From Sphingobium trunci (GTDB lineage: Bacteria; Pseudomonadota; Alphaproteobacteria; Sphingomonadales; Sphingomonadaceae), in NCBI RefSeq assembly GCF_022664535.1, contig NZ_JAKUJY010000014.1:1-64000 (forward strand): a DNA stretch of 64,000 bases, in the 5' to 3' direction. How positions within the stretch are numbered: position 1 is the first letter of the stretch; the number at the start of each line of letters is the position of its first letter. The notes under the pieces were generated by a model. It searched no databases. It saw nothing but the letters and a program-made list of their open reading frames with translations, and was not told the DNA's origin. Position numbers and translations under genes: made by a program. Shown here piece after piece: positions 37,098-54,914 of this stretch.

Positions 37098-37892
37098 TCA
37101 GGTCCGGCCAATGGGCACCGTCAGGCAGGCGATCCGGCCGAAGGCGCCGAAATCCGCGGTGCAGCGTTGCCCCACCCGGACCCGGTGCATTCCGGTCACC
37201 GCGCCCGTCGAGACGAACTGCCCGGCTGTGAGCGGAAAGCCAAGCCTGGCGCACTGGTCAAGGGCAAAGGCGAATGCAGCCAGCGGTCCTCCCGGCAGGT
37301 CGGCGGCCGACGCGCTGCGCACCGGAATGCCGTCGATGCTGGTGGAGCAGGTCATGGCGCGCGGGTCGTCAAGCGCAGCGAGTGGAATGTCCGGGCCGAA
37401 GATCTGGCCGTTATTGTTGCCGAAATCGGCGATGGAGGCCAATGAATCGAGGTCCGGCATGGCCGCGAGCGGACTGCCGGCGACCTCCACGCCGATCCGG
37501 ACAGTGCCGATTAGGCGGCGCGCGCGGCCGGTGTCGAAGCCTGCATCCTGCAATGGCTGATCCGCATGCGCGACCATGACATATTCGGCTTCGAACGCTG
37601 CCGACCCACCGACGAAAACCGGGAAATCGGCCTCCTTGCCCTTGTCCAGCCGCGCCACCGAAGCGGCGAATACCGGCCCGACGAAACGGTCCAAGCCGAA
37701 CCGGGCGGCCAGCGCCGGGCTGAGGCGCCGGACCTTCCACCCGGCGATCGCGTCGGGCCAAAGGGCGATGGCGGCGCGCTGGATCGCATAGGCATCGTCG
37801 AGGTTGGAGGGCAGCAATCCTGGAAAGCTCGCCAAGCCGTGCCCATTCTGGCGGGCGGCCACGAAGCGGGCTGCGATCCCGGCCGCCGGCAT
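37098..37892 (-). CDS. 2-keto-4-pentenoate hydratase-like protein at the end of the iac operon
   Basis: 264-residue member of the MhpD/fumarylacetoacetase-fold hydratase/decarboxylase group. Start 37892 (MPAAGIAARFVAARQNG) follows the iacG stop by one base. Family features are AYAIQRAAIALWPDAIAGWKV, FVGGSAAFEAEYVMVAHADQP (metal-binding E-x-E-like region), ADFGNNNGQIFGPDIPL, and TGAVTGMHRVRVGQ near the end. Such enzymes hydrate 2-hydroxypentadienoate in meta-cleavage of catechol, the end product of the known Iac pathway. It is not part of the iac set I know, so this position is notable. A different hydrolytic role is possible. Confidence 0.8.
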   Translation of the reverse strand: MPAAGIAARFVAARQNGHGLASFPGLLPSNLDDAYAIQRAAIALWPDAIAGWKVRRLSPALAARFGLDRFVGPVFAASVARLDKGKEADFPVFVGGSAAFEAEYVMVAHADQPLQDAGFDTGRARRLIGTVRIGVEVAGSPLAAMPDLDSLASIADFGNNNGQIFGPDIPLAALDDPRAMTCSTSIDGIPVRSASAADLPGGPLAAFAFALDQCARLGFPLTAGQFVSTGAVTGMHRVRVGQRCTADFGAFGRIACLTVPIGRT

Positions 37893-37893
37893 G

Positions 37894-38388
37894 TCAGGCA
37901 ACCGCCCGCATCGGCAGCGCGTGATATCGGCGATCGAAATAGACCAGTCCCGGCTCGTCTCCACCCAACAGCAAATGTTCGACTTCGCACAGGAATATGC
38001 TGTGGCTGCCCATCTCCGTCGTCGAATGCACGGTGCAGCCAAAAGCCGCCAACGCACCGGTCAGTGCCGGGACGCCATGGTCCAGCATGGTCCAGTCCGC
38101 CATGGCGAAGCGCGTTTCCATGTCGAGCGTCCTGTTCGCGAAGATGGAAGACAGCGCTTCCTGCGTGCCGGACAGCACATTCACGGTCAGGCGGCCATTA
38201 TCCTTCAGCATGGCGTGCATCCGCGCAGAACGGTTCACGCACAGCAGCAGCGAGGCCGGGCTGTCGCTGACGCTGCATACGGCCGATACGGTCATGCCGT
38301 GGCGGCCCGCCGGACCGTCGGTGACGATGATGTTCACCGCCGCACCCAGCCGCGCCATGGCGGCGCGAAAATCCTGCGTATTGATCAT
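37894..38388 (-). CDS. iacG: Flavin reductase of the IAA catabolic operon
   Basis: Flavin reductase (FlaRed/HpaC-like) of 164 residues. It would supply reduced flavin to the monooxygenase IacA. Recognisable parts are FRAAMARLGAAVNIIVTDGPAGRHGMTVSAVCSVSDSPASLLLCVNRSARMHAML and the C-terminal GGDEPGLVYFDRRYHALP. It follows iacE by 4 bp; in the known order iacHABICDEFG a ferredoxin-reductase gene, iacF, would lie between them, and it is missing here. Confidence 0.87.
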   Translation of the reverse strand: MINTQDFRAAMARLGAAVNIIVTDGPAGRHGMTVSAVCSVSDSPASLLLCVNRSARMHAMLKDNGRLTVNVLSGTQEALSSIFANRTLDMETRFAMADWTMLDHGVPALTGALAAFGCTVHSTTEMGSHSIFLCEVEHLLLGGDEPGLVYFDRRYHALPMRAVA

Positions 38389-38392
38389 GGTC

Positions 38393-39133
38393 CTACCGCA
38401 TCAGCAGGCCGCCATTGATGTCCCAGACGGCACCATTGGCGAAGGCGGCCTCGGGCGAGGCCAGATGGACGGCGGTCGAGGCCACGAAATCGGGCGACCC
38501 CAGATGCTGGACGGGAATGCCGGCGACGATGCCCTCCAGCCTGTCCACCGGCACCAGCGCACGCACCGACGGCAGATCGAGCGGCCCCGGCGCGATCGCG
38601 TTTACGGTGATCCCGAACGGGGCAAGGTCGCGCGCGAACACCTTGGTCAGGGTGATGATGCCGCCCTTGGACGCCGCATAGTGCGCGCCCGTCGCCGTCC
38701 CGCCATTCTGCCCCGCGAGCGAGGCGATGTTGACGATGCGGCCATGGCCCTGATCCTTGAAGGTACGGCCCAAGACCTGGCAGCCGATGAAGGTGCCGCG
38801 CAGATTGACGGCCAGCACCTTGTCGAACTCGTCCGGGCTGATCTCCAGCACCGGGCGGACGATGGTGACGACGGCGTTGTTGACCAGCGCCTCCACCGAT
38901 CCCCATGCCTCCACCAGGCGGTCGCGCGCCGCCTCGAACGCGGCCTGATCGCGCACGTCGAGCGTCAGGCCGAGCGCCGTCCCGCCGCTCGCGTCCAGTT
39001 CCTGCGCCAGCGCCTGCGCGGCAGCGCCGTCGATGTCGGAAACGCCGACATGATAGCCCGCCGCATGGAAGGCGCGGGCGATCGCAGCGCCCAACCCCTG
39101 CGAGGCGCCCGTGATCAGGACAGACCGCCTCAC
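38393..39133 (-). CDS. iacE: Short-chain dehydrogenase IacE
   Basis: Classical SDR, 246 residues: VLITGASQGLGAAIAR for NAD(P), VNNAVVTIVRP, and the active site IASLAGQNGGTATGAHYAASKGG with Tyr-x3-Lys. In the proposed Iac route it converts an indole-derived intermediate such as 2-hydroxy-IAA toward 3-hydroxy-2-oxo-IAA; the exact step is known only from other bacteria. ATG 39133 overlaps the iacD stop (ATGA). Gene name rests on position in the operon as well as sequence. Confidence 0.85.
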   Translation of the reverse strand: MRRSVLITGASQGLGAAIARAFHAAGYHVGVSDIDGAAAQALAQELDASGGTALGLTLDVRDQAAFEAARDRLVEAWGSVEALVNNAVVTIVRPVLEISPDEFDKVLAVNLRGTFIGCQVLGRTFKDQGHGRIVNIASLAGQNGGTATGAHYAASKGGIITLTKVFARDLAPFGITVNAIAPGPLDLPSVRALVPVDRLEGIVAGIPVQHLGSPDFVASTAVHLASPEAAFANGAVWDINGGLLMR

Positions 39134-39651
39134 AGCAGATATCCGATGCCGAACTGGAAATCGTCGGCATTGATGAGGGTCACGACCTTCTCGTCGATGC
39201 GCAGCGAGCCATTCCCGGCCCGGACGATGCGATACCGCATGTCGGCGGGCAGGAAGCGCATATGCTCATATTTATACTCGGCCAGCATCTGCGCACCGCG
39301 CAGGGTGATCGATGTCTCATCCCGTGCCTCGACGACGAAGCGCGACACGGTGCGAACGGTGCGGGCGGGGGGCGCCGAGGACATGGAAAAGCCCGACAGC
39401 AGCCGCTTCACCCGCGCCTGGCGCATCTCCTGGTCGTCATAGACGATGTTGAGCGCGTCGGCATAATCGGCGTCGCGATCGACCGGGATGATATATTTGC
39501 CCGTTTCGGTCCAAAGCTTCAGCCATGGCTTGTAATCCAGCCGGTCGAGCATGTCCGCCTCCGCCCAGATGAAGGCAACGGCTTCCTCGAAAGTCGGTGC
39601 TTCGGTCTGCAAGTCCGTCACGACGCTTTTCTCCTCAAGGGCGATGCTCAT
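39130..39651 (-). CDS. iacD: Aromatic-ring hydroxylating dioxygenase beta subunit IacD
   Basis: Small subunit of the Rieske oxygenase, 173 residues from ATG 39651, which overlaps the iacC stop. Typical beta-subunit features are FIWAEADMLDRLDYKPWLKLWTETGKYIIPVD, the DALNIVYDDQEMRQARVKRLLSG region and the C-terminal RIVRAGNGSLRIDEKVVTL. It is structural and partners IacC; it acts on an oxindole-type intermediate on the way to catechol. Confidence 0.88.
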   Translation of the reverse strand: MSIALEEKSVVTDLQTEAPTFEEAVAFIWAEADMLDRLDYKPWLKLWTETGKYIIPVDRDADYADALNIVYDDQEMRQARVKRLLSGFSMSSAPPARTVRTVSRFVVEARDETSITLRGAQMLAEYKYEHMRFLPADMRYRIVRAGNGSLRIDEKVVTLINADDFQFGIGYLL

Positions 39652-40904
39652 GCGCTCATCATCCTCTTCCACATCTGATAGGCGGCGCGCATGCCGGTTT
39701 CGGCACTGACGTCGCCGGCATTATGGCCCGCCTCGGCCACGCCGTCGGGCGCATCGACGCCGCGGTTGAGCATGATCCAGAGGTCGTCGCCCGCCCGCGC
39801 GCCACGCTGGACCCGTTCCCAGCCCTCGGCATCGTCGGGGGTGCCGAAACCCATCGGTCCCTGGAAATGCTCGTGCAGCCGCAAGCGTGCCCGGTTGCCC
39901 GCCACCGGACCGCCGTCCATGCCGATCGCGACATGCGTGATCTCCGTCTCGTCCACCGTTACCGGGCGCAGGACGCGGAAGAAGGCCATCGAGCAGGCGA
40001 CATTGGGAAAGAGGTTGAGGTTGAAGCCCGAACCGCCGACCGCGCGGACGATCCTGCGAACCTGATCGTCGGGATAGCCCTCGTCGGCCAGTTCCTCCGC
40101 AAGGGCCGCGAAGCGATCGGGGATCGGGGCGTCCAGATTCTCTTCAAGGTCGATGAGATCGGGGATCATCACCATGACGCTGTGGCCATTGCCCAGATCC
40201 TCGACCCAGCCGCCCTGCCCCAGCACATCGAAGACATTTTCCGTCTCGGCGTCGAGACTGTCGAGGAAGGTCTTGTGGACGATCGGGAAATGATAGGCGT
40301 CGGTGGTGTTTTCGAGCTGAATCTTCCAGTTGCCGGGGAAGCGGAACCTGTGTTCGCCCAGCGTCTTGACCCCGAAACCGGCGCCCTGCTTCATGAACAG
40401 GTCGATCCATTTCCTCGCCGGGCCGAGAAAGTCGGCCAGCGGCTCGATATCCTGCTTGAAGGTCGCGAAGATCAGCCCGTGATATTCTTCCGTCCGCAGC
40501 GAGATCAGCGGAAATTCCGACGTGTCGAACGCCTCGTCATACCCCTTGGCATGGGGCACCTTGCGCAGCCTGCCGTCCACATCATAGCTCCAGCCATGAT
40601 AGGGGCAGACGAAGACGCTGGCCTTGCCCTTCTTCTTTTCGCAGACGCTCGCCGCACGGTGGCGGCAACGGTTGAGGAGGACATGGACCTTGCCCTCTCT
40701 GTCGCGCGTCACGATCACCGGCTGGCGACCGACCCACGACGTCTTAAAGCTGTTTTTCGCGGGCACGTCGCTGGCGTGGGCGACCCAGACCCATGTGCTG
40801 TTGAAGATGCGGTCCATCTCCTCCTCGAAGATGGCGGGATCCTTGTAGAGCGCGGTGTGGACGCGGTCGTCCTTTACCAGCGCGGCGAAATCAGTGCTGT
40901 TCAT
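39648..40904 (-). CDS. iacC: Rieske aromatic-ring hydroxylating dioxygenase alpha subunit IacC
   Basis: Catalytic large subunit, 418 residues. The Rieske [2Fe-2S] ligands are C80-x-H82 and C100-x2-H103 (LNRCRHRA, VCPYHGW). The mononuclear iron site is in TTDAYHFPIVHKTFLD with His205 and His210. In the Iac pathway it attacks the hydroxylated oxindole ring, leading to catechol after release of the side chain. It would need electrons from a reductase; iacF is not in this operon, so another ferredoxin/reductase must serve. Overlaps iacI upstream and iacD downstream. Confidence 0.9.
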   Translation of the reverse strand: MNSTDFAALVKDDRVHTALYKDPAIFEEEMDRIFNSTWVWVAHASDVPAKNSFKTSWVGRQPVIVTRDREGKVHVLLNRCRHRAASVCEKKKGKASVFVCPYHGWSYDVDGRLRKVPHAKGYDEAFDTSEFPLISLRTEEYHGLIFATFKQDIEPLADFLGPARKWIDLFMKQGAGFGVKTLGEHRFRFPGNWKIQLENTTDAYHFPIVHKTFLDSLDAETENVFDVLGQGGWVEDLGNGHSVMVMIPDLIDLEENLDAPIPDRFAALAEELADEGYPDDQVRRIVRAVGGSGFNLNLFPNVACSMAFFRVLRPVTVDETEITHVAIGMDGGPVAGNRARLRLHEHFQGPMGFGTPDDAEGWERVQRGARAGDDLWIMLNRGVDAPDGVAEAGHNAGDVSAETGMRAAYQMWKRMMSA

Positions 40905-41437
40905 GCGCCCTCCTCGGCGTCGTGATGGGGGACGGAAATGTCGGCCTCGTCATTCCAGGGGCCGACATCCCGGGAGAAGATATTTTCGGTCAGGAAACGC
41001 GACATGCGCCATGCGCCCTCCTCGAAAACACAGTCGATGCTGAGCGCCGCGCTGCGGAAATCGGAGCGGCCGTCGCGATAGGTCGACACCTGCAACATCA
41101 TCCAGCGGCCAGTGGCATGGCCTGCGTCCAAGACATCGATCGTCTCGGACGAAAGATAATGGCCGTTCATGCGGAAATGCGGCGGGTCAGTGTAGCTGGC
41201 GAGCATCGCGACGATGGCCTCGCGCCCCTGATGCCGCCCGAACGCCTTGCGGTAGCGCCCCTTGCCTTCCCACACGGCATCGCGGGCAAACAGGCCACCC
41301 AGACTATCCATCGGCGTCGACGGGCCCAGCGCGTCGCACAGACGGAAATAGTCCATCACCACGCGCCGGACCGCGCCCTCCGCTTCCAGCAATGCAACCC
41401 GCCGGCTCAGGATCGCAAGGGCGCTCTCGCCGGTCAT
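40901..41437 (-). CDS. iacI: SnoaL-like protein IacI
   Basis: Small NTF2/SnoaL-fold protein of 178 residues, of the type found in all iac clusters between iacB and iacC. Visible segments: VVMDYFRLCDALGPSTPMDSLGGLFARDAVWEGKGRY, EAIVAMLASYTDPPHFRMNGHYLSSETID and GRSDFRSAALSIDCVFEEGAWRMSRF. Its biochemical role is not established, although assistance to IacE-type chemistry has been suggested. Start overlaps the iacB stop (ATGA) and its stop overlaps the iacC start. Confidence 0.85.
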   Translation of the reverse strand: MTGESALAILSRRVALLEAEGAVRRVVMDYFRLCDALGPSTPMDSLGGLFARDAVWEGKGRYRKAFGRHQGREAIVAMLASYTDPPHFRMNGHYLSSETIDVLDAGHATGRWMMLQVSTYRDGRSDFRSAALSIDCVFEEGAWRMSRFLTENIFSRDVGPWNDEADISVPHHDAEEGA

Positions 41438-41796
41438 GCGGGGATGACCAGCTCCCGGCCGATCCGGGCCTCGACGCGCATATATTTCCAGAGGCGATGT
41501 TCGCCGACCTCGATGGTGCGGAACAGGTTGCAGGCAGCGACGGCGGTGGTGCGGTCAGGTACGTCCGCCAGGATGTAGAAAGTCCAGGGCCAGCCGTTGG
41601 GCGACGTGCCGACCATGGTTTCATCATCGTCCAGAGTGCCCAGCACGGTGACGCCCGGCAGGTCGCGAATGCCCTTCAGCATTGCGCCGGTGGCCGCCCA
41701 CACCCTGCCGATCTCGGCGGCGGGCAGGTCGAAGAAATTCTGGAGCACCGCGCCGCAGAAGAGGACGCGCAGGGGTTTGGCGGCTGGTTCGGTCAT
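41434..41796 (-). CDS. iacB: IacB, small protein of the IAA catabolic operon
   Basis: 120 residues with no known domain function, but recognisable as IacB by LKGIRDLPGVTVLGTLDDDETM, NGWPWTFYILADVPDR and ACNLFRTIEVGEHRLWKYMRVEAR. It probably has a ferredoxin-like dimeric fold. It lies between iacA and iacI as in other iac operons. No enzymatic residues can be assigned. Confidence 0.82.
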   Translation of the reverse strand: MTEPAAKPLRVLFCGAVLQNFFDLPAAEIGRVWAATGAMLKGIRDLPGVTVLGTLDDDETMVGTSPNGWPWTFYILADVPDRTTAVAACNLFRTIEVGEHRLWKYMRVEARIGRELVIPA

Positions 41797-41817
41797 GACA
41801 TGCGATCCTCTTGTCGA

Positions 41818-42990
41818 TCAGGGAAATCCGGGCGGGTTGTCGAGGCCGAGCAGCACCCGGCCGGCGCTGGCGAAGCTACCCTCGGACAGGAAGGCATGCT
41901 GCGCCACGACCATCGCATCATGGACATAGGCCGACAGCGGATGGTCATTGTAGATGCCGGTCGTGCCCGACAGCATGAAGGCGGTCTGGGCAACCTCGCA
42001 ACCGGCGCGCGCGACATGGCTGGAGGCGAGGCGCAAAAGGCCCGTCTGCTTGAGCGACGCCGTATCGCCCGCGCATAGCGTGGCCCAGACATCGTCGGTC
42101 GCCTCGTAGAAGAAGGCGCGGGCCGAGCGCAGTTTCGCTTCCGCCTTGGCGATCTCGCTCTGGACATAGGCACGGTCGGCCAGCACGGGCGCACCGGTGA
42201 TCGATGCGCGGCCGCCCGCCATTTGCGTAATCTCGTCCAGCGCGGCACGGGCGACGCCAACGCCAACGATCGCCAGCACCTGGGCGGCAAAGGCCATGGA
42301 GGGATAGCGGTAGAGCGGCGTGTCGAGGGTCGGCGCACCGCCCCGGATGAAAGTCCATGCCTCCGGCACGATCACGCCGTCGACCAGCAGATCGTGGCTG
42401 CCCGTGCCCTGAAGGCCGATCACGTCCCAATTGCGCTCGATCGTGACGGACGAGGCAGGCATGACCGCCATGCGGGGCAGGCCGCCCTTCTCGCCATCGA
42501 CCTTGACGCCGACGCCGATGATGTCCGCGCCGGTCGCGCCGCTGCCGAACTTCCAGCGGCCCGAAACCTTGAGGCCTCCTTCGACCTTCTCCGCGGCCTG
42601 CGGCGGGAAGAGCGCACCGGCGAAGATGACATCCGGGCCATCGGCATAGACCTTCGCCAGGGTCTCCTGGGGGAGCGAGGCAAGATACATGGACGACACG
42701 CCGAAGCTTGCCACCCAGCCGATCGAACCATCCGCTTCCGACAGCCGTTCGATCAGCCGGAGGAAGGTGGCGGGCGACGTTTCCATGCCACCATGGCGGG
42801 TCGATACCAGCGCCCGATAGACACCCAGCCGCCGCAATTCTGCGACGATGTCTGCCGGCAACTGGCCCAGGGCCGCGATTTCCCGCCGGCGCGCCCGAAA
42901 CGATGCAATCATCTCGTCGGGGACCGGCGCGATGCCGGAATCCTCTGGGGCGCTCGGCCCGGAAAGGGCACTCAACGCGTTCATCAGCAT
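41818..42990 (-). CDS. iacA: IacA, flavin-dependent indole-3-acetate monooxygenase (ACAD fold)
   Basis: 390-residue protein of the acyl-CoA dehydrogenase fold used as a reduced-flavin monooxygenase (group D-like), taken to hydroxylate the indole ring of IAA as the first step. Segments: EMIASFRARRREIAALGQLPADI, GSIGWVASFGVSSMYLASLP, GGLKVSGRWKFGSGATGADI, NWDVIGLQGTGSHDLLVDGVIVPEAW, and HPLSAYVHDAMVVAQHAFLSEG. This is the hydroxylase subgroup, without the QxHGGxG end of true ACADs. Reduced flavin would come from IacG. AAGGA lies before ATG 42990; ATG 42984 would give a TGATG overlap with iacH. Confidence 0.88.
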   Translation of the reverse strand: MLMNALSALSGPSAPEDSGIAPVPDEMIASFRARRREIAALGQLPADIVAELRRLGVYRALVSTRHGGMETSPATFLRLIERLSEADGSIGWVASFGVSSMYLASLPQETLAKVYADGPDVIFAGALFPPQAAEKVEGGLKVSGRWKFGSGATGADIIGVGVKVDGEKGGLPRMAVMPASSVTIERNWDVIGLQGTGSHDLLVDGVIVPEAWTFIRGGAPTLDTPLYRYPSMAFAAQVLAIVGVGVARAALDEITQMAGGRASITGAPVLADRAYVQSEIAKAEAKLRSARAFFYEATDDVWATLCAGDTASLKQTGLLRLASSHVARAGCEVAQTAFMLSGTTGIYNDHPLSAYVHDAMVVAQHAFLSEGSFASAGRVLLGLDNPPGFP

Positions 42991-44123
42991 TTTTCCTTAT
43001 GTTGTAAAAGCAGGTCGGATCCGGCGAAGAGCCGGGCGATGGCGCACAGCCGAGCATCATCCCCCCGGCGCGCCACCAGTTGAAGGGCGGCGGGGCGCCC
43101 CGACGGCGTCGTCAGCGGCAGTGAAATGGCGGGGTGGCCGCTGAGGTTGAAGGGCCGCACGAAGGCCGAGAGACGCAGGATCGCGGCGGCATCGCCCAGC
43201 GCATCGGCGCGCGGGGGGAAATCCGGCAGGGTGGGCAGCGCCAGCACGTCGAACCGCTCCAGCAAGGCATCGACCTGGGCGACGAACCGGGCCTTCACCT
43301 GCCCGGCCCATATCAGGCGATCCTGGCGCGCGACCATGGGAGCGCTCCGCAGTCTCTGCTCGACATCGGCGCCCAGCAATCCGCTGTCGACCAGATGCCC
43401 GTATGCCGCCAATGCCTCCGCCGCCATCTGAACGACCCCGGCCTGGAAGGCATCTTCCAGAAGAGGCAGGGCACAGGGTTGCACAGCATCGCCCCGCGGC
43501 GCCAGCGCGGCGGACAGCGCTCCCGCTATTTCGACATCGGCATCGACATGGACGGTTCCGATCGATGGCGAGGCCTGCTCGGCTGCCGGACCGAAGGCCG
43601 GGTCCATCTGCGCCATGGCCTGCTCGATCAGCGGCATGGACCGGGCAAAAAGCCCGACGCAATCCAGCACGCTGTCCGCGGGCGTCACACCGGCACGGCT
43701 GAGCCGTCCGAAACTCGGCTTGAAGCCGATGACGCCGCAACAGGCCGCGGGCATGCGCACCGAACCGCCGGTGTCGGTGCCGAGCGCCAGATCGACCAGC
43801 TCGGCCGCCACCGCCGCAGCCGAGCCGCTCGACGATCCACCGGGAATGAGTCCGGGATGAAGGGGGTTTTCGACATGGCCGGTCCAGTCGTTGAGGCCGG
43901 TCATGCCATAGGCCAGTTCATGCATGCCCGCCTTGGCGACGATCCGGTAGCCGCCGTCCACCAACGCCTGCACCACTTGCGCATGACGTCGTGCGGGCGG
44001 AGCATCGGCAAAGGCGCGCGAACCGCAACATGTCGGCGATCCGGCAATGTCGATGCAGTCCTTGACCGCTACGGCAGGCCCGTCGCCCGATACTTCATAG
44101 CTTTCGATCAGGATAGCAGACAT
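42984..44123 (-). CDS. iacH: Amidase-signature protein IacH
   Basis: 379-residue amidase-signature enzyme. The catalytic Ser-cis-Ser-Lys set is visible: Lys21 in AVKDCIDIAG, the GGSSSG loop at about 95-100, and Ser121 in GTDTGGSVRMP. It may hydrolyse indole-3-acetamide or a related amide to IAA. Start 44123 is chosen because GGGGGAATCGGGG precedes it and because the upstream ATG at 44165 touches the operator palindrome and lacks a ribosome-binding site. First gene of the iac operon, divergent from iacR. Confidence 0.87.
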   Translation of the reverse strand: MSAILIESYEVSGDGPAVAVKDCIDIAGSPTCCGSRAFADAPPARRHAQVVQALVDGGYRIVAKAGMHELAYGMTGLNDWTGHVENPLHPGLIPGGSSSGSAAAVAAELVDLALGTDTGGSVRMPAACCGVIGFKPSFGRLSRAGVTPADSVLDCVGLFARSMPLIEQAMAQMDPAFGPAAEQASPSIGTVHVDADVEIAGALSAALAPRGDAVQPCALPLLEDAFQAGVVQMAAEALAAYGHLVDSGLLGADVEQRLRSAPMVARQDRLIWAGQVKARFVAQVDALLERFDVLALPTLPDFPPRADALGDAAAILRLSAFVRPFNLSGHPAISLPLTTPSGRPAALQLVARRGDDARLCAIARLFAGSDLLLQHKEKC

Positions 44124-44166
44124 CCCCGATTCCCCCGATGGCTGGTCCAGAAAAAGCTGGATCATA

Positions 44167-44186
44167 TTACGTGAATAGTCAAGTAA
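44167..44186. promoter_or_regulatory. 20-bp palindrome in the iacH/iacR intergenic region, candidate IacR operator
   Basis: TTACGTGAATAGTCAAGTAA: arms TTACGTGA and TCAAGTAA match at 7 of 8 positions around a 4-base spacer. It lies 44 bp before iacH and 110 bp before iacR. The form TTAnnTGA-N4-TCAnnTAA recurs at 51880-51899 and 52071-52090. A 20-bp palindrome in the divergent region next to a MarR gene is the classic MarR operator arrangement. Binding by IacR is inference. Confidence 0.65.
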
Positions 44187-44766: not shown

Positions 44767-44821
44767 CCGCCGCTCCTTTGGCGCAACCGTGACCTGGCCC
44801 GGCCGGGTTTTTGCGTGCAGG

Positions 44822-47018: not shown

Positions 47019-47079
47019 CGCTAAAAACCCCTTCCGCTCTTCTTATAGGATCGAACGTTGATATTTTTTTATGTCATTA

Positions 47080-47116
47080 TATCGTAATCTTCAACTATAT
47101 TTATTGCATTGCAATA
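47080..47116. promoter_or_regulatory. Promoter region of the TonB receptor with half-operator and a 15-bp palindrome
   Basis: On the minus strand, TATAGTTGAAGATTACGATA (47080-47099) keeps the left half of the operator seen at iacH and GH3 (TA-x-TTGA), but the right arm is degenerate. Beside it TATTGCATTGCAATA at 47102-47116 is a perfect inverted repeat with 7-bp arms. Both lie 60-100 bp before the receptor ATG and are candidate control sites. Confidence 0.4.
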
Positions 47117-47156: not shown

Positions 47157-49580
47157 TCAGCGCCGGTAGGGATCGTCCAGAACTTCTGATTTTTCCATGG
47201 CTTGGCCGATTTCTTCGGGCGTGAAGAGCATCGGCTTATATTGGAAATCCCGGAACAGCCCGACCTGATCGCGGACATGCTCCCCCGTCTCTTCCGCCTG
47301 TCCCGGCGCGACCACGTTGCGCCCGACGACTCCGTCCGGACGCAGTTCCACAAGGTGATTCTGCGTGCCGCGTTCGGCGAGCGGCACGATCACAGGCTGC
47401 TTCGCGCCCTGCGGCACGGCATGGGCGTTGGCCGTTGCGAACTGGGTGAACAGGATCGGATCGGACCAGTGTGCCATATCGCCGCCCCGCTCCGCCGAAA
47501 GCTTCGCCAGAACCGCGCGCAGCACGTCCACCTGCACCTGTGCCGCGCTCCTGCCACCCAGATAGTCCGCCCTGACCGGCAGGGAGGCCGCCTGGCCCGC
47601 TAATATGCGCGCCAGCAATTTGGGTCCGCGCCCGATATCATAAGTGTCGCCGCGCTTGTAGCCCAGCATCTTCGCCAGGGATTTGCCCACCATCTCGGGG
47701 CTGAAGACCCGTTCCGTCATCGCCGTCAGCCAGGCATCATAGATGACGAGCGCCGGGCTGTCATAGCGACCGTCGCCATCGGCATCGATGCGGCGGCGGT
47801 CCCAGCCCGCCAGCATATCGCGCGCCTGCCGCAGTAGCGGATCGCCCGGCGCCTCCTTCCCGATCGCTGCGATCAGGCCGGGGATGAAGAAGCCCGCCGT
47901 CTGGCTCATCGTGCTGGCCACGCGATTAAGCTCTTCCATGTCGGCCAGGGAAACCCTGCCATGCGCCTGCATGAAATCCTGCAGCAATCTGGCGCGTTCG
48001 ACCGAGCTCCAGCCGGTATCGGGGAAATACCATCCCTTGATCGGCTGCTGGTTCCAGTTGGTGAAGAAGCCGCGCGACGGGTTGAGACTGTAGGGTTGCT
48101 GGGAAGAGGGCAGGAACCCGCGCCAGTCGCGCGCGCCCGTGCCGTCAGTGGGAAGGCGGGGATCCTGATCGCCGCTGCGGATCGGGAAACGCCCCGGATA
48201 GACCATGCCGATATTGCCTTGCCGGTCGGCATACCACCAGTTGATGCTGATCGCAGACCGCAGCGCCGCCTTGCGGAATGCCGTGAAATCCTGCGCCAGC
48301 GTCGAATCGAACCAGGCCATTTCGGTGTCCAGCTCATGCCCTTCCCAGGCGCGGGCACGGGCATAGGCGCGATGATTCTTCGCATCGACCGTCAGCACCG
48401 GCCCATGGATGGTGCGATAGAAGGTGGCGGTGACGGGCGCGGCGCCCCTGACCCGGATCGTCTCGGTCCGCGCGGCCATCGCCTTCCACCGGCCCTTGTG
48501 GAAATAGCGGGTCGGATCGGCGGGATCGAGCCGCTCGACAAAAGTGTCGACGGCGTCGCCCCGGCCCACCGTGCTGGACCAGGCCGTGTTGCCATTATGG
48601 CCGAAGAAGATCGGGATGAAGCCGATCGGCGTCGCGCCGACCACGTCCATGCCGCCGCCATGCAGGCCAGCCTCGTACAGGAAGCCAGGCATGGTGAAGC
48701 CCATTTGCGGTCCGCCCATCAGCAGCGGATAGCCGGTCGCCGACTTGGCCCTGCCCACCACCCAGACATTGCTGCCGCCATGATCGTTGAGCGCCAGCGA
48801 GGCCATCTTCGCGCCCAGCATCGCGTCGGTCCTGCCGGTCCCCTCGGCCGCCGCGGCGATGCCGGGACCGGTCGCAGCCGCATGGGGTTGCCCGACCACG
48901 GACAGAGCGCGCAGGCTGCGGCCCTTCCAGTCGCCCGCCGCCAGCGAGGTGACGGCCGCAGGGTCTTCGTCCAGAGGAATGAGATCGTCGAAGATGGCCC
49001 GCGCCCGCGCCTCGCCAAATTGCGCCGTCAGCGCCTCGAGCAGTCCGGCATTGTCCAGTTCCTGCGTCTTGTCCGTGAAGCGGACCGCGACATTGCCGAT
49101 GAAGATCTGGGCCAGGTCCTCGGCCGTCCAGGGCCTGGGGGTGAAGCCAAGCTCTGTAAACCGGGCCGGCAGCCTGCCCTTGGCGATCCAGGCGTTGAGG
49201 CCATCGGCATAGGCCGTGAACAAAGCCCTTTCGGAAGGCTTCAGCGCAGCAAGACGCGCGGTGACCTCCGCCCGGGTGTAGCCGCGCTGGCGCGTCTCGC
49301 GGTCGAAATCGACAAAGGACGGACCCAATATCTCGGCAACCTCGCCCCAGACCGACCGGCGCATCATCTCCAGCTGGAAGAGGCGATCTTGGCCAATGGC
49401 GTAGCCCAATCCATAATAAAGGGCGGGACGGCTCTGCGCATGGATATGAGGGACGCCATAATGATCCCGCTCTATCCGGATGCCGGATCCGGCCGGTTGG
49501 GCAGCGGCCTGTGCCGATACGCCCGCCAGCGCCGTGGCGGCGAACAGCATGCGGTAGGAACAACGAAACAGGGACGTCAT
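47157..49580 (-). CDS. Penicillin acylase family (S45) N-terminal-nucleophile amidohydrolase
   Basis: Periplasmic precursor of 807 residues that would self-cleave into alpha and beta chains. Start 49580 gives the signal peptide MLFAATALAGVSAQAAAQP. Alpha chain: IRIERDHYGVPHIHAQSRPALYYGLGYAIGQDRLFQLEMMRR. The autocatalytic and nucleophilic Ser is about residue 270 in NDHGGSNVWVVG; the beta chain then shows LMGGPQMGFTMPGFLYEAGLHG, FFGHNGNTAWSST, YRTIHGPVL and NWWYADRQGNIG. The family cleaves aryl-acetyl and acyl amides, including phenylacetyl amides and acyl-homoserine lactones. Beside the iac operon, an indole-3-acetyl-amino-acid substrate is an attractive inference. Last gene of the operon TIM-barrel, MFS, acylase. 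Confidence 0.88.
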   Translation of the reverse strand: MTSLFRCSYRMLFAATALAGVSAQAAAQPAGSGIRIERDHYGVPHIHAQSRPALYYGLGYAIGQDRLFQLEMMRRSVWGEVAEILGPSFVDFDRETRQRGYTRAEVTARLAALKPSERALFTAYADGLNAWIAKGRLPARFTELGFTPRPWTAEDLAQIFIGNVAVRFTDKTQELDNAGLLEALTAQFGEARARAIFDDLIPLDEDPAAVTSLAAGDWKGRSLRALSVVGQPHAAATGPGIAAAAEGTGRTDAMLGAKMASLALNDHGGSNVWVVGRAKSATGYPLLMGGPQMGFTMPGFLYEAGLHGGGMDVVGATPIGFIPIFFGHNGNTAWSSTVGRGDAVDTFVERLDPADPTRYFHKGRWKAMAARTETIRVRGAAPVTATFYRTIHGPVLTVDAKNHRAYARARAWEGHELDTEMAWFDSTLAQDFTAFRKAALRSAISINWWYADRQGNIGMVYPGRFPIRSGDQDPRLPTDGTGARDWRGFLPSSQQPYSLNPSRGFFTNWNQQPIKGWYFPDTGWSSVERARLLQDFMQAHGRVSLADMEELNRVASTMSQTAGFFIPGLIAAIGKEAPGDPLLRQARDMLAGWDRRRIDADGDGRYDSPALVIYDAWLTAMTERVFSPEMVGKSLAKMLGYKRGDTYDIGRGPKLLARILAGQAASLPVRADYLGGRSAAQVQVDVLRAVLAKLSAERGGDMAHWSDPILFTQFATANAHAVPQGAKQPVIVPLAERGTQNHLVELRPDGVVGRNVVAPGQAEETGEHVRDQVGLFRDFQYKPMLFTPEEIGQAMEKSEVLDDPYRR

Positions 49581-49605
49581 GCGACCTCTATGATGGAATG
49601 GGCCA

Positions 49606-50913
49606 TCAGGCGGTTTCCAGTTGGCGCCGGAAGGGCGCCAGACCACGGCTCAACACCAGCGCCGCCAGCAGCGCCGCCCCCACCGCGACGATGGCGAGAG
49701 AGCAGCCCGTTCCCTGCGGCCCGCCGAACCAGCGGTCGTTGGCAAGGCCGACCAGCGCGCTGCCGACCCCCATGCCGATCAGCGAATTGATGCCCAGGAA
49801 AAGCGCCGAGATGCGCGAGCGCATCGACGGCGGCGCGACGATCTGCATGACGGCGGTGGATGGCGGCATCGGGAAGGAGGCGAAGAAGAAGGCGATGGCA
49901 AGCAGGATCGTCGCCTGGCCGGCGCTGGCGGCCCACGGAAGCAGGGCGAGCGGCGGAACCGCGCCCAGCGCGCCGATGATGCCGGTGCGGAAGGGCGCGT
50001 CCCTACCGCCCGAACGCGTCAACCGGTCCATGATCGCGCCGCTCGCCAGCACGCCGCCGCCCGCCGCGAAGATCGCGACCCAGCCCAGACGCAGCCCGCT
50101 CTCGCCCGGCGTCAGCGCGAAAACGCGCATCAGATAGGCCGGGGACCAGGACAGCAGGGAGAACAGCGTCATCGCCGCCAGCGTATAGCCCGCCATATGG
50201 GGCAGGAAGATCGCCTTGTTGCGCGACAGGAAATGCATCACCTCCATGACCGAAGGAACGGCGCTCGCAGGCGCGGGCTGCCCGCCGCGAAGGCGCGGAT
50301 CGCGGATCGTCGCCAGCATCACCAGCGCCAGCAGCAGGCCGGGCGCACCCACGATGATGAATGTCAGTTGCCAGGCGGCAAAGCGCAGGCCCAGCCAATA
50401 TTGCGGACCACCCGCGCTCACCGCCCCGATCACCCAGCCGCCCAGCAGGAAGGCGATGCCCGCCCCCAGGAAGGAGCCGAGCGAATAGACCGCGACCGCC
50501 CGTCCCAGCCTTTCCTTCGGGAAAAGGTCGCTGATCAGCGAATAGGTGGCGGGCGAAAGCGCCGCCTCGCCCGCGCCGACGCATACCCTTGCCACGAAAA
50601 GCTGAAGGAAGCCGCGCGCAAAACCGCAGGCCACCGTCGCCAGGCTCCAGAAGGCGACACCGATGCCGATAATCAGCGGCCGGGATTTCCGGTCGGACAG
50701 GGCGGCGATCGGAATGCCCATGGTCGCATAGAAGATCGCGAAGGCAAAACCGTGCAGCAAGCCGAACTGGGTATCGGAAATGCCGAGGTCGGACTGGATC
50801 GGGCCGATCAGCAGCGCCATGATCTGCCGGTCGATGAAGGAGAATATATAGGCGACCATGCAGAGGATCACTGCGATCCATGCGCGCCGATGCGTCAGGT
50901 CCCGATCGGTCAT
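49606..50913 (-). CDS. MFS transporter, spinster-like
   Basis: Inner-membrane permease, 435 residues with about twelve hydrophobic segments. The N-terminus (AWIAVILCMVAYIFSFIDRQIMALLI, then FGLLHGFAFAIFYATMGIPIAALSDRKSRPL) is typical of the spinster-like MFS group, which carries diverse organic acids and lipids. It overlaps the TIM-barrel gene start-to-stop (ATGA) and precedes the acylase by 25 bp, so import of an acylase product is likely, perhaps free IAA or an amino acid. Confidence 0.87.
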   Translation of the reverse strand: MTDRDLTHRRAWIAVILCMVAYIFSFIDRQIMALLIGPIQSDLGISDTQFGLLHGFAFAIFYATMGIPIAALSDRKSRPLIIGIGVAFWSLATVACGFARGFLQLFVARVCVGAGEAALSPATYSLISDLFPKERLGRAVAVYSLGSFLGAGIAFLLGGWVIGAVSAGGPQYWLGLRFAAWQLTFIIVGAPGLLLALVMLATIRDPRLRGGQPAPASAVPSVMEVMHFLSRNKAIFLPHMAGYTLAAMTLFSLLSWSPAYLMRVFALTPGESGLRLGWVAIFAAGGGVLASGAIMDRLTRSGGRDAPFRTGIIGALGAVPPLALLPWAASAGQATILLAIAFFFASFPMPPSTAVMQIVAPPSMRSRISALFLGINSLIGMGVGSALVGLANDRWFGGPQGTGCSLAIVAVGAALLAALVLSRGLAPFRRQLETA

Positions 50914-51824
50914 TGCGGCAATTTTCGCAGATAGGCCATGCTGTCGCGGATCGCGCTCATCGGGTCGTCCGACCGGTCATATTCGACGAAGAAATGCCGC
51001 GCGCCGGCCTTGCGCGCGGCACCGATCAGCCGGGGCAGGTCCAGCCGCCCGGTACCGACCACGGCGAATTCGCCCGCGGCGTCGACATCCTTCACATGAC
51101 AGCCGAAATAGCGGCCCGGATTATTCTCGAAATAGGGGATGGGATCCTGTCCCGCCTTCGTCACCCAGTAGAAATCCAGCTCCATCTTCACAAGGTCCGG
51201 GTCCGTCCCTTTCAGGATCAGGTCATAGATCATGTCCGATCCCAGACGCTGGAATTCGCGATGATGATTGTGGAAGGCAAAGGTCAGTCCGGCATCCCGG
51301 CACATCCGGCCGGCCTGATTGAAGATGCCGATATAGCGATCCAGGATCGCCCGGTCCGCCAGCATGCGCGGCATCAATATGGGCCAGGTCACATAATGCT
51401 GCCCCAGCAGCTTCGCCTTGCCGATCCCGTCCTCGACCAGCGCGAGCGCCTTTTCCGGCTGGAAGGCACGCTCGTAATTTTCGCGATTCTGCTCGGTGCT
51501 GATCTGCTTGCGGGTCCAGGCACCGAAGGAGGCATAAACCTCGTCGGACGCGATATGCTGCGATGGGGAGACCAGCCCGAAACGATCCAGTTGCGCGCGC
51601 AGCCACATCGGGTCGCGGCCGAAGCTGCCGACCGTTTCCACTTCCCTGTAGCCCAGCGCGGCAACCTGTCGCAGCGTGCCTTCGAAATCCTGCTCCAGCA
51701 GCGCGCCGACGGTGAAGAGCTGCAGGCCCCACACATGCCTGCGCGCGGCTCCGGCATCCGACGCCGTGGCATAGCCCGCGGCTGCCATGGCGATCGCCAT
51801 GGCCAGAAAATCCCTGCGATCCAT
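50910..51824 (-). CDS. Xylose-isomerase-like TIM-barrel protein with Tat signal
   Basis: 304 residues. The N-terminus MDRRDFLAMAIAMAAAGYATASDA is a twin-arginine signal, so the protein is exported folded, presumably with its metal. The barrel belongs to the AP-endonuclease-2/xylose-isomerase group: LQLFTVGALLEQDFEGTLRQVAALGYREVE, GLTFAFHNHHREFQRLG, KMELDFYWVTKAGQDP and FGCHVKDVDAAGEFAVVG. Relatives are sugar epimerases, keto-sugar eliminases or glycoside-processing enzymes; the reaction is unknown. First gene of the TIM-barrel, MFS, acylase operon and divergent from the GH3 gene, which hints at processing of a glycoside. Confidence 0.82.
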   Translation of the reverse strand: MDRRDFLAMAIAMAAAGYATASDAGAARRHVWGLQLFTVGALLEQDFEGTLRQVAALGYREVETVGSFGRDPMWLRAQLDRFGLVSPSQHIASDEVYASFGAWTRKQISTEQNRENYERAFQPEKALALVEDGIGKAKLLGQHYVTWPILMPRMLADRAILDRYIGIFNQAGRMCRDAGLTFAFHNHHREFQRLGSDMIYDLILKGTDPDLVKMELDFYWVTKAGQDPIPYFENNPGRYFGCHVKDVDAAGEFAVVGTGRLDLPRLIGAARKAGARHFFVEYDRSDDPMSAIRDSMAYLRKLPQ

Positions 51825-51879
51825 TCCGTTCCCCCTTCCCGCCTTTCCGGCGTCGACAGGACCAGCGGCGACTGCTGGT

Positions 51880-51899
51880 TTAGTTGAATATTCATTTAT
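51880..51899. promoter_or_regulatory. Operator-like palindrome before the TIM-barrel/MFS/acylase operon
   Basis: TTAGTTGAATATTCATTTAT contains the perfect core TGAATATTCA and fits TTAnTTGA-N4-TCAnnTA. It lies 55 bp before the operon's first ATG in the 300-bp divergent region shared with the GH3 gene. Similarity to the iacH site suggests the same regulator. Confidence 0.55.
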
Positions 51900-52070
51900 T
51901 ATGAAATCATGTCAACGTGATTCCGCGCGACTGGCTGGTCTTTGAAAACGAGCCGCGTGGCGGTAAATTCGGCTGCGACAATGCCGTAAAAAGGGCAATA
52001 ACGGACCAGGACGGAAAATCCGCAGCAGATATGGGAAAAGTTGAAATTTCCTACTCAAAGCCACCAAAGA

Positions 52071-52090
52071 TTAATTGACATTTCAATTAA
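52071..52090. promoter_or_regulatory. Perfect 20-bp palindrome before the GH3 gene
   Basis: TTAATTGACATTTCAATTAA has perfect 8-bp arms (TTAATTGA, TCAATTAA) around CATT and includes a TTGACA hexamer. It lies 34 bp before the GH3 start and matches the form of the iacH site. It is the best-formed copy of the three. Confidence 0.65.
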
Positions 52091-52124
52091 ATTGGCTTTG
52101 CTGGGGCTATCAACGGAGGCAGAA

Positions 52125-54914
52125 TTGAAGACAGAATCGCGCGGTGCCGCCAGAGGGCATTTCCGGATCCATCGCCACAGGGCGCAGGTCTTGCTCCACG
52201 CGAGCACCTTCATTCTGGCAGCCGTCGGAATCCATGCCCCGCTGCATGCCCAGACGATCACGCCGACCGCCGCGCCGCTTCCCGAAACCAGCGACGACCA
52301 GCGTGCCCGCGACCTCGTCGCGAAGATGACCCTGGACGAGAAGATCGACATGATCCGGGGGGCGCAGGAAGACGCGAAGACCGACCAGGCGGCCGCAGGC
52401 TATCTGAGGGGCGTTCCCCGCCTCGGCATTCCTTCCATGCGCTTTGCCGATGGTCCTCCCGGCATCCTGACCCGCGAACCGTCGGTCGCCCTGCCCGCGA
52501 CCATGGCGCTGGCGGCGACCTTCAGCCGGGAGGATGCGGAACAGAATGGCGCGGTGGTCGGCCTTGAAGCCCGGCGGCTGGGCGTCGACGTGGCGCTGGA
52601 GCCGTTCGTCAACATCATGCGCGACCTCCATTTCGGTCGCGGCTGGAATACCTTTGGCGAAGACCCTTATCTGTCGGGCATCATGGGCGCCGCGCAGGTG
52701 CGCGGCATCCAGGGCCAGGGCGTGATGGCGCAGGCCAAACATTATCTCGGCTATGATCTGCGCGGTTACAAGACGATCATGGACGAGCAGACCCTGCACG
52801 AAGTCTATCTCGCGCCGTTCGAGGCCGTGATCGACGCGGGCGTCTCATCGCTGATGTGCGCCTACAACTACACCAACGGCCAATATGCCTGCGCCCATGA
52901 GGACCTGCTCGACACCACCCTGCGCAAGGAGCTGGGCTTCAAGGGGTTCGTCACGTCGGACTGGGGCGCGGTGCACAAGCCCACCGACATCAACACCGGC
53001 CTCGACATGGAAATGCCGGGCCTGATGCCCAAGGGCAGCCCCTGGCTGACCATCACCCGTTCCTATTTCGACAATGACACGGCGCCCGTCGAGCCGCTGA
53101 AAATGACGATGGACGTTTTGGGCCGCGTCTTTGGCCGCGCCGTGCCAGAAGAGGGCAAGGGCGAGCGCGCGCCGATCAAGTCGGTGATCTTCCGCGGCCA
53201 GTTTCCCGACGATCCCGATCCGAAGAACATGGCCTCCGCCCTCGCCGACGGATCGGTGCGGATGGCGGCGATCGACCAGGCAGCCTATCGGGTCGTGCAT
53301 GAGATGAACCGCTTTGGCCTGCTGGACCGGGGCAACCACCAGCCGACAGGCGCGGCGGTCGATCCGCGCATCGCGGGCATCATCCGCAAGACGGCGTCCG
53401 ACGCGGCCGTGCTGCTGAAGAATGAAGGCGCCGCCCTGCCCCTCAGCCAGGCCGATCTGGACGATCTGGCCCTGATCGGTCCCGGCGCCGGTCAGGTGGT
53501 GGCGCTCGGCATCAATGCCGAACATTCGCTTGGCCTGCCCGAAACGCAGAACAGCGTCGCCGCCCTGCTCCAGCGCGAGGCCGGCGGCCGCGCAGGCGCC
53601 CATATTGCCTATGCGGTCGCGAACGACATGACCGGTACACCGGTCCCCGCCGACCGCTTCAGCAGCGGCGGCGCGCCGGGCCTGGCCCGCTATGTCGAGG
53701 GCCGCAAGGTGGCGCAGGACAGCAGCCTCGACTTTACCGACAGCAATGGCCGTGCGCTGCCCGCGGGCGCGCAGCCAGGCTGGAAGGGCGAGATCGATAT
53801 TCCGTCGGCGGGCACCTACGGCATCTATCTCCAGATGATGGGCACCCATGGCGAGCTGCTGATCGACGGTAAGCTGGTCGGCCGCTCCAGCGGCATGACC
53901 GGCGCCCGCCATGGCGATACGGTCCAGCCGGGGCAGGACGCGCTGCTCTCCACGACGGACAATCTCAACAATGTCCGCCGCGATGTCGAACTGACGGCGG
54001 GCAAACACAGTATCGAGGTGCTGACCAGCGAAGACACGTCGCACGCGCCGATCCAGATCCGCCTGAACTGGGTCACGCCGGAGCAGCGGCAGGCCAATTA
54101 CCGCCATGCTGTCGAGACCGCTGCGAAGGCCAGGAAGGCCGTCATCTTCGCCTGGGCGCGACAAAGCCCGGTCTTCGGCCTGACGCCCGAACAGAACCGG
54201 CTGATCGAGGATGTGAGCGCCGCCAATCCCAATACCGTCGTGGTGCTGAACACCAGCTATCCCCTCGCCATGCCCTGGCTGGGCAAGGTGAAGGCCGTGC
54301 TCAACATGTGGTGGGGCGGCGACAAGGGCGGCGAGGCGACCGTCGATATCCTGACCGGCCGCGTGAGCCCGGCGGGCCGCCTGCCCTTCACCTGGGGCAA
54401 GGCGCTGGAGGATTATCCCGCCACCGACCCGCGCTATCCCGAACGCGGCGCCCGCGAAGACGGCGTCGTCACCTATTCCGAAGGACTGGATGTCGGTTAT
54501 CGCTGGTTCGACCGGCAGGGCAAGGCGCCGCTCTATGGCTTTGGCCATGGCCTCAGCTACACCAGCTTCGCCTATTCGGGCCTCAGCGTGAAGCCTGCCG
54601 CCGACGGCGGCCTCGAGGTGCGGTTCACGATCGCCAACACCGGAAAGCGCCCCTCGGATGAGGTGGCGCAGGTCTATCTCGGCGCGCCCGCCAATGCCCC
54701 CAAGGGGATCGCCTTCCCGATGCGGGCGCTCGCCGGTTTCGATCGCATCCACCTGGAACCGGGGGAACGCAAGCCGGTGGCCATCCATGTCGCGCCGCGC
54801 AGCCTGCAATATTGGGATGAAAAGACCGGCAGCTGGACAAAGCCCAAGGGCGCGCGCCCAGTCTATGTGGGCGGTTCGTCGCGCGACCTGCCGTTGACCG
54901 CCCGGAGCCGGTAA
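52125..54914 (+). CDS. Secreted glycoside hydrolase family 3 beta-glycosidase with PA14-like insert
   Basis: Periplasmic or secreted beta-glucosidase-type enzyme, 929 residues. The start is a TTG at 52125, five bases after a strong GGAGG; no ATG fits. A signal segment (VLLHASTFILAAVGIHAPLHAQ) follows. GH3 N-domain: LGIPSMRFADGPPGI, FGRGWNTFGEDPYLSG, QAKHYLGYD, and the nucleophile Asp279 in GFVTSDWGAVH. A PA14-like insert lies at about 510-640 (IPSAGTYGIYLQMMGTHGELLIDGKLVG). C-terminal parts are WGGDKGGEATVDILTGRVSPAGRLPFTW and an FnIII-like domain. Divergent from the TIM-barrel operon; substrate may be a plant glycoside. Confidence 0.92.
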   Translation: MKTESRGAARGHFRIHRHRAQVLLHASTFILAAVGIHAPLHAQTITPTAAPLPETSDDQRARDLVAKMTLDEKIDMIRGAQEDAKTDQAAAGYLRGVPRLGIPSMRFADGPPGILTREPSVALPATMALAATFSREDAEQNGAVVGLEARRLGVDVALEPFVNIMRDLHFGRGWNTFGEDPYLSGIMGAAQVRGIQGQGVMAQAKHYLGYDLRGYKTIMDEQTLHEVYLAPFEAVIDAGVSSLMCAYNYTNGQYACAHEDLLDTTLRKELGFKGFVTSDWGAVHKPTDINTGLDMEMPGLMPKGSPWLTITRSYFDNDTAPVEPLKMTMDVLGRVFGRAVPEEGKGERAPIKSVIFRGQFPDDPDPKNMASALADGSVRMAAIDQAAYRVVHEMNRFGLLDRGNHQPTGAAVDPRIAGIIRKTASDAAVLLKNEGAALPLSQADLDDLALIGPGAGQVVALGINAEHSLGLPETQNSVAALLQREAGGRAGAHIAYAVANDMTGTPVPADRFSSGGAPGLARYVEGRKVAQDSSLDFTDSNGRALPAGAQPGWKGEIDIPSAGTYGIYLQMMGTHGELLIDGKLVGRSSGMTGARHGDTVQPGQDALLSTTDNLNNVRRDVELTAGKHSIEVLTSEDTSHAPIQIRLNWVTPEQRQANYRHAVETAAKARKAVIFAWARQSPVFGLTPEQNRLIEDVSAANPNTVVVLNTSYPLAMPWLGKVKAVLNMWWGGDKGGEATVDILTGRVSPAGRLPFTWGKALEDYPATDPRYPERGAREDGVVTYSEGLDVGYRWFDRQGKAPLYGFGHGLSYTSFAYSGLSVKPAADGGLEVRFTIANTGKRPSDEVAQVYLGAPANAPKGIAFPMRALAGFDRIHLEPGERKPVAIHVAPRSLQYWDEKTGSWTKPKGARPVYVGGSSRDLPLTARSR

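Follow-up and report, generated by a model that had tools for sequence, protein, structure and literature searches.

Penicillin acylase is thought to be a scavenger of natural phenylacetate esters and amides, and the regulator PaaX binds its promoter in Escherichia coli (PMC9493321); a similar role has been proposed for the acylase of Acinetobacter baumannii AYE (PMC2265553). The pac/PaaX system of E. coli W, in which an acylase of the penicillin G type stands under the regulator of the catabolic route of the released acid, is the closest precedent for the locus described here, a 17.8-kb block at positions 37098 to 54914 of a 64,000-nucleotide stretch of Sphingobium trunci DNA (the window). 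The block joins an iac-type operon for the degradation of indole-3-acetic acid (IAA) to genes for the regulator IacR, a TonB-dependent receptor, an S45-family acylase, a carrier of the major facilitator superfamily (MFS), a TIM-barrel protein and a GH3 beta-glycosidase. In contrast to pac/PaaX, the acid would be indole-3-acetate, the regulator is the MarR-type IacR, with its control read from a candidate box, and a TonB receptor, an MFS carrier, a TIM barrel and glycosidases accompany the acylase. By analogy, the block would be the indole-acetate counterpart of the PaaX-penicillin acylase link, in which genes for uptake and hydrolysis augment an iac operon.

The iac operons of Pseudomonas, Acinetobacter, Enterobacter, Sphingomonas and other bacteria combine genes of the types IacA to IacI with a MarR regulator gene (PMC11630574, PMC9613470), as does the operon in the window, which unlike those ends in a hydratase-like gene. 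The IacR of Enterobacter soli is a repressor of its iac locus (PMC9613470). The words TonB, MFS, acylase and conjugate are absent from the main text of a 2024 survey of IAA degraders (PMC11630574), in which the word glycosidase was not searched for. The original prediction knew of no described bacterial system of this make-up. This agrees with the literature covered, which was mainly open access with subscription journals mostly outside it and yielded neither an IacR-controlled acylase nor a bacterial salvage system for IAA conjugates of this composition. We consider it somewhat probable that the block is one IacR-controlled auxin-scavenging module that includes conjugate hydrolysis.

The conservation of the block within the genus was studied in a sample of 94 genomes, the window's own included. 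The acylase was found in three of them, namely, the window's genome, G346 (86% identity) and G385 (83% identity). Both relatives have the genes in identical order (GH3-TIM-MFS-S45-TonB receptor-iacR-iacHABICDEG-hydratase), so that the stretch is kept as a block in two other genomes. The block proteins are 78 to 95% identical across the three genomes, and the DNA identity of the block is 83 to 86%. DNA homology starts at 37098 in both relatives and stops at 54901 or 54921; beyond the block, no DNA match longer than 150 bases was detected between the 64-kb window and 60 kb around each relative's copy. IacA is present in six of the 94 genomes, three with the block and three (G357, G375 and G376) with a distant IacA (49 to 60%) and without the acylase.

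These results bear on the central claim of the original prediction, that the genes of the block form one system. The block is whole in all three acylase-bearing genomes of the genus, with candidate boxes at its four promoters, and its two parts are joined in G346 and G385 as well as in this strain. The neighborhood comparison that had been proposed across sphingomonads thus supports the claim within the genus, where the five genes stand beside iac in three genomes, but not beyond it. The five-gene set did not recur beside any of 16 iac loci from 14 genomes of other genera, each covered over a 20-kb stretch, which would be expected if two unrelated gene blocks merely happened to be neighbors. 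That explanation is made very improbable by the retention of the unit in three genomes whose flanks have no DNA match over 150 bases to the window and by the related box sequences at the promoters, and accidental adjacency was rejected on the grounds of block conservation and boxes.

The distribution of the block does not follow relatedness closely. By rpoB bit score (rpoB was found in 90 of the 94 genomes), G385 ranks 34th and G346 49th in nearness to the window's genome, and the acylase is absent from all 33 genomes that stand nearer than G385. This patchiness, with the contents staying together, agrees with transfer of the whole block or with its repeated loss. The patchiness suggests horizontal transfer, as does a pair of IS21 genes for a transposase and its helper (L103:12824-15152), separated by about 0.7 kb from the ferredoxin reductase gene, described below, at the end of the G385 copy. 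Descent followed by loss would also agree with the 83 to 86% DNA identity, however. No tRNA gene was detected in four stretches around the block in G346 and G385.

In both relatives, the block is longer at each end. Directly after GH3, both contain a gene for a GH78 alpha-L-rhamnosidase with a Tat-type (twin-arginine) motif (Pfam; L100:13056-14741 and L104:15249-17018), whose closest PDB match for the G346 protein is 4xhc (E 6e-143). After the hydratase gene, the iac operon continues in both with a 2Fe-2S ferredoxin gene (L101:12762-13076 and L103:17145-17453), and G385 has in addition a ferredoxin reductase gene (L103:15878-17140) past the ferredoxin. A search that covered the window gave no match in it to GH78, ferredoxin or ferredoxin reductase. 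Both end genes seem to have been lost from the window copy, unless it lacked them from the start.

The promoter alignment of the three genomes contains conserved stretches, and a palindromic box of the type AGTTGACTATTCACGTAATATG is common to the iac promoters of other genera. A matrix was built from nine sites in six stretches, all from iac promoters of other genera and none from the block; these nine training sites were chosen by eye, after the window's own conserved promoters had been viewed. Candidate operators were detected at all four block promoters, three strong and one weak. The iacH promoter has a box at 44162-44186 on the minus strand with a matrix score of 34.3. The promoter shared by the TIM-barrel, MFS and S45 genes has a box at 51880-51904 on the plus strand (27.7; 27.7 and 25.3 in the relatives), and the GH3 promoter has one at 52071-52095, also on the plus strand (26.4; 26.1 in each relative). 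The weak candidate, at the receptor promoter (47074-47098, minus strand), scored 15.3, with 13.1 to 13.6 in the relatives, and lies inside a stretch conserved in the three genomes. Opposite-strand readings of the same palindromes gave hits as well.

Scores of this size were rare elsewhere. The best box score in the 64-kb window outside the block was 11.2, and that in the G346 and G385 regions outside the block was 14.3. In 22 other stretches from the family (434 kb), only two places scored above 20, one of 23.0 (L107 in genome G011) and one of 22.3 (L109 in genome G119); both stretches hold the MFS gene and both come from IacA-positive genomes. The maximum in the remaining 20 stretches (394 kb) was 16.1. 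In 300 shuffles of the block's own AT-rich promoters, the maximum was 20.5, and of 20 shuffles made of the whole window, two exceeded the receptor box, with scores of 17.3 and 17.7. The leave-one-out scores were 17.7 to 29.7 for eight training sites and 4.5 for one. Of the 16 iac stretches from other genera, nine have a box above 16, and six of these nine held training sites. L075 repeats some of the training sites, and the scores that are independent of training were 32.3 (L072), 32.4 (L076), 34.4 (L143) and 23.5 (L142). In other genera, good boxes precede a TonB receptor gene (L076 and L077) or an MFS gene (L074 and L075). Taken from these sequences, co-regulation of the block as a single IacR module is very likely, with IacR predicted to bind the boxes.

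The MFS carrier gene (49606-50913, minus strand; PF07690) connects the acylase to iac in another way. The TIM-barrel and MFS genes overlap by 4 bases, and the S45 start lies 25 bases past the MFS gene; because of this overlap and spacing, the three genes look like one operon. In a sample of 298 genomes from the family, itself part of a larger group, IacA (E 1e-60 or better) was found in 15 genomes and the MFS carrier (E 1e-90 or better) in nine. All eight genomes with an MFS carrier of at least 60% identity, which belong to six genera, are IacA positive, compared with 15 of 298 overall. The probability of this result by chance is 4.6e-12 by genome and 5e-7 by genus, with relatedness ignored in both and the 60% cut picked after inspection of the list. 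The ninth match (44%, in G121) is IacA negative, and seven IacA-positive genomes have no MFS match at the threshold. The MFS gene adjoins iacA in G174 and G220 and lies about 6 to 21 kb from it in G046, G178, G011 and G083, whereas in G119 the two genes share a contig at a distance of about 420 kb; the G011 MFS gene has one internal stop.

The association extends outside the family. In the plasmid collection, at least five records were common to the IacA and MFS matches listed. Among those matches, an MFS relative of 43 to 51% identity lies less than 12 kb from iacA in Acinetobacter baumannii X4-300, Burkholderia cenocepacia, B. arboris and B. multivorans, and iacA and the MFS relative are far apart in Novosphingobium sp. 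EMRT-2. Genes for MFS carriers and TonB receptors also recur in some of the 16 iac stretches from other genera. The MFS carrier tracks iac across genera. The gene for the TonB-dependent outer-membrane receptor of the block (44877-47018, minus strand; PF00593 and PF07715) is preceded by a separate gap of about 140 bases.

The S45 gene (47157-49580, minus strand; PF01804, E 2e-141) encodes an amidohydrolase of the penicillin G acylase type that is predicted to be exported by a signal sequence. Its likely start is the ATG at 49580, later than that of the longest open reading frame (ORF) and in agreement with the three-genome alignment. The closest PDB match is the penicillin G acylase 7reo (E 5e-143), and weaker matches are the acyl-homoserine lactone acylase PvdQ and cephalosporin acylases. 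The nucleophile Ser292 (numbered on the longest ORF) aligns with beta Ser1, and the protein keeps beta Ser1, Gln23, Phe57, Ser67, Asn241 and Arg263 and alpha Arg145 and Phe146. Of what we take to be the phenylacetyl pocket positions, beta Phe57, Ser67, Trp154 and Ile177 and alpha Phe146 are kept. Four others are changed, with Met in place of beta Phe24, Val in place of both alpha Met142 and beta Ala69, and Arg at beta71, a position presumably occupied by Phe in the E. coli acylase. These four changes are identical in all four orthologs, namely, those of the window, G346, G385 and the metagenome-assembled genome (MAG) L028. Only the Met is common to the 37% identical homolog of G220, and the G052 homolog has none of the four. 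An indole-acetyl group joined to an acidic amino acid would be well matched by a roomier acyl pocket that carries an extra positive charge.

The nearest solved relatives of the S45 enzyme are penicillin G acylases, and phenylacetate-type amides have been proposed as the natural substrates of penicillin acylases (PMC9493321, PMC2265553). The enzyme might, on this basis and on its weaker matches to PvdQ and cephalosporin acylase, act on other amides, such as phenylacetyl amides, N-acyl-homoserine lactones or beta-lactams, and be linked to iac through shared regulation or through the transport of arylacetates in general. This explanation is improbable, since the gene lies in an operon with the iac-tracking carrier behind a candidate IacR box and since beta24 Met, alpha142 Val, beta69 Val and beta71 Arg differ from penicillin acylase in all four orthologs.

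Acylase matches were found in 10 of the 298 family genomes, and all except that of the window's genome are 33 to 37% identical. Of the genomes other than the window's, only G220 and G253 are also IacA positive, with the two genes about 200 kb apart or on different contigs. A scan of a wider collection, sensitive to close relatives only, gave L028 as a single close relative; its 40 further matches were distant and came mostly from Algoriphagus. A plasmid or phage origin of the acylase was considered and rejected; the best plasmid match was 35% identical, and two phage matches were partial (25 to 33%). The G385 acylase had seemed to be broken by a TAA, but the TAA is upstream of the likely start, and the gene looks intact. 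A separate observation concerns A. baumannii X4-300 (L148), in which iac is accompanied on one stretch by a divergent MFS relative and a penicillin-acylase-type gene about 7 kb beyond the iac genes.

The secreted GH3 beta-glycosidase (52125-54914, plus strand; PF00933, PF01915 and PF14310) is encoded divergently from the TIM-MFS-S45 genes. Its start is likely the TTG at 52125 behind GGAGG, later than the start of the longest ORF. The N and C domains of GH3 enzymes are present, and an SDW motif, spotted by eye in the translation, presumably contains the nucleophile Asp. The beta-glucosidase 4i3g is its best structural relative by far (E 1e-137), with the same N and C domains and an Fn3-like end; we take it to be DesR, which removes glucose from a natural product. 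It differs from 4i3g in setting, in that GH78 follows GH3 in the relatives.

The TIM-barrel protein (50910-51824, minus strand; PF01261) is xylose isomerase-like and resembles 3-keto-glycoside lyases. Its N terminus contains the Tat-type motif RRDFL, and its PDB matches include 8tct (E 7e-25) and the Agrobacterium O-glycoside beta-eliminase AtOGE, 8bvk (E 1e-18). The AtOGE positions 132/134, 161/163, 189 and 233 are matched by its HNH, ExD, H and E motifs, so that the metal and catalytic residues H132, H134, D163, H189 and E233 (8BVK; PMC10628242) have their equivalents. In contrast to AtOGE, it has a Tat-type signal, and the PF13618 flavin-dependent glycoside 3-dehydrogenase subunit was not found in the window's genome. 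TIM-barrel relatives of at least 50% identity are present in four of the 298 family genomes, all of them positive for IacA and the MFS carrier; outside the window's genome, the TIM gene is near the MFS gene only in G083. In G220, TIM relatives lie in a neighborhood (L139:6398-14903) that also encodes a mandelate racemase-type enzyme, a PfkB kinase and a GntR regulator. Beside them stand a GMC oxidoreductase gene and one for gluconate dehydrogenase subunit 3, the subunit family that had no match in the window's genome. The neighborhood likely encodes a 3-keto-glycoside route, for which such genes would be expected.

Every gene named in the original prediction was located in its predicted place by Pfam, NCBIfam and PDB searches. 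Its enzyme types also held by homology, with the S45 enzyme of the penicillin G acylase type and GH3 of the beta-glucosidase type; the glycoside that it proposed for GH3 fits less well, as IAA-glucose is an ester, which is not the usual GH3 substrate. The glycoside is probably more than IAA-glucose, because the relatives' copies add an alpha-rhamnosidase, which points to rhamnosides. Several other results weigh, with these, against a module devoted to auxin. The MAG L028 has the TIM-MFS-S45 genes (76, 72 and 66% identity) and no IacA ortholog (best match 27%), a negative tempered by the uncertain completeness of the MAG, in which the three genes fill a 4.3-kb contig. No acylase homolog lies near iac in any of the 298 family genomes other than the window's, and the one other GH3 relative in the family genomes (E 1e-180) is in an IacA-negative genome. 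PF13618, the usual partner family of the TIM barrel, has no match in the window's genome, where other dehydrogenase families were not searched for; it has one match in G346 and two in G385. The receptor box is weak when taken alone, and no box above 16 was detected in seven of the 16 other iac stretches (L070, L078, L079, L080, L082, L083 and L084).

Some of these results would be explained if IAA served as a cue of plant proximity and the IacR-controlled set scavenged general plant metabolites, whose products are not auxins. The GH78 alpha-rhamnosidase is part of the set in both relatives, the MAG contains TIM-MFS-S45 without an iacA ortholog, and TIM relatives elsewhere stand beside sugar-catabolic genes, with no IacR box found at the TIM genes of other genomes. 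This is the main rival explanation, but we consider it unlikely, since the carrier tracks iac and the acylase is of a type that acts on arylacetyl amides, IAA being an arylacetate.

For the auxin-scavenging module, the following course may be proposed, with cell locations assigned by signal sequences. The TonB receptor would let conjugated auxins pass the outer membrane. Once these were in the periplasm, their indole-acetyl amide bond would be cut by the S45 acylase, and GH3 (plus GH78 in the relatives), perhaps with the TIM-barrel lyase, would strip the sugars. The MFS carrier, if it works in the direction of uptake, would import the freed arylacetate, which the Iac enzymes would degrade, and the arylacetate would lift IacR repression at the promoters of the module. 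The order from uptake to catabolism that had been predicted, with a receptor, exported enzymes, an inner-membrane carrier and cytoplasmic Iac enzymes, makes sense as far as homology goes. A more specific version, for which we see a less than even chance, is a dedicated IAA-sensing pathway that takes up amide- and glycoside-bound auxin catabolites of plants, opens them in the periplasm and passes them on to Iac; bacteria could then erase bound auxin as well as free IAA. Its substrates could be, for example, oxidized IAA (oxIAA)-amino acids, oxIAA-glucose and N-glycosylated IAA-amino acids.

The iac-type operon occupies 37098-44165 on the minus strand (longest-ORF bounds; Pfam, NCBIfam and PDB searches). 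In the order of transcription, its genes are of the types IacH, IacA, IacB, IacI, IacC, IacD, IacE and IacG, followed by the hydratase-like gene; the Iac letters are assignments that we presume. With homologs of IacA, B, C, D, E, G, H and I in one operon and a divergent MarR gene, the operon has the make-up of an iac locus, and the same gene types recur in the iac stretches of other genera. The first gene encodes an IacH-type amidase (42984-44123; PF01425). Its longest ORF begins at 44165, and the position of the box and the three-genome alignment suggest a start at 44123. It is followed by genes for an IacA-type flavin monooxygenase with an acyl-CoA dehydrogenase fold (41818-42990; PF08028, HsaA-like under the cut-off) and an IacB-type small protein (41434-41796), which has no Pfam or NCBIfam match and is 45 to 93% identical to the protein in the same position at other iac loci. 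The IacI-type protein (40901-41437; PF13577) is SnoaL-like. The Rieske dioxygenase has an IacC-type large (alpha) subunit (39648-40904; PF00355 and PF00848) and an IacD-type small (beta) subunit (39130-39672; PF00866). An IacE-type short-chain dehydrogenase (38393-39133; PF13561/PF00106) and an IacG-type flavin reductase (37894-38388; PF01613, E 2e-39; RutF/HpaC-like, under the NCBIfam cut-offs) come next. The last gene encodes the 2-keto-4-pentenoate hydratase-like protein (37098-37892; PDB 1sv6/2wqt, E 3e-9; NCBIfam PRK11342, E 4e-13, under the cut-off), relatives of which are present in six of the 16 iac stretches from other genera. All nine genes lie on the minus strand.

A ferredoxin or ferredoxin reductase gene occurs in some iac clusters and is not constant. 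The ferredoxin and reductase of the two relatives had no match in the window or in the 16 iac stretches from other genera. Because no such match exists in the window, its Rieske oxygenase may borrow electron carriers from elsewhere. The gene for the IacR-type MarR-family regulator (44296-44766, plus strand) is divergent from the operon and has its likely start at 44296, later than that of the longest ORF. Its best PDB matches are 7kua (E 2e-34) and 7l19 (E 1e-27), which are listed as MarR templates from the IAA loci of Pseudomonas putida and E. soli (PMC11630574).

Elsewhere in the window, positions 5827-15694 contain a cellulose synthesis operon (BcsQ, an ORF resembling a BcsA-BcsB fusion, BcsC and a GH8 family enzyme). 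Positions 16419-35902 contain an apparent CoA-dependent degradation cluster, with genes for a cytochrome P450, a TonB receptor, acyl-CoA dehydrogenases and an AMP ligase, a 420-amino-acid protein with weak MaoC-type matches, and a thiolase-like ORF recognized by eye.

IAA-degrading bacteria alter root growth, and the work on them covered here centers on free IAA. In plants, conjugates are reversible storage forms or degradation intermediates; oxIAA-amino acids are the major metabolites in pea, and oxIAA-glucose is dominant in Arabidopsis (PMC10390838). The block offers four candidate promoter sites and several enzymes for direct tests. If the proposed function is true, a conserved and apparently co-regulated gene set that reaches the conjugate pool would widen the meaning of auxin degradation. 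It would also be a second arylacetyl amidase under a catabolic regulator, after the PaaX-penicillin acylase link, and such a second case would support the old proposal on why penicillin-type acylases exist.

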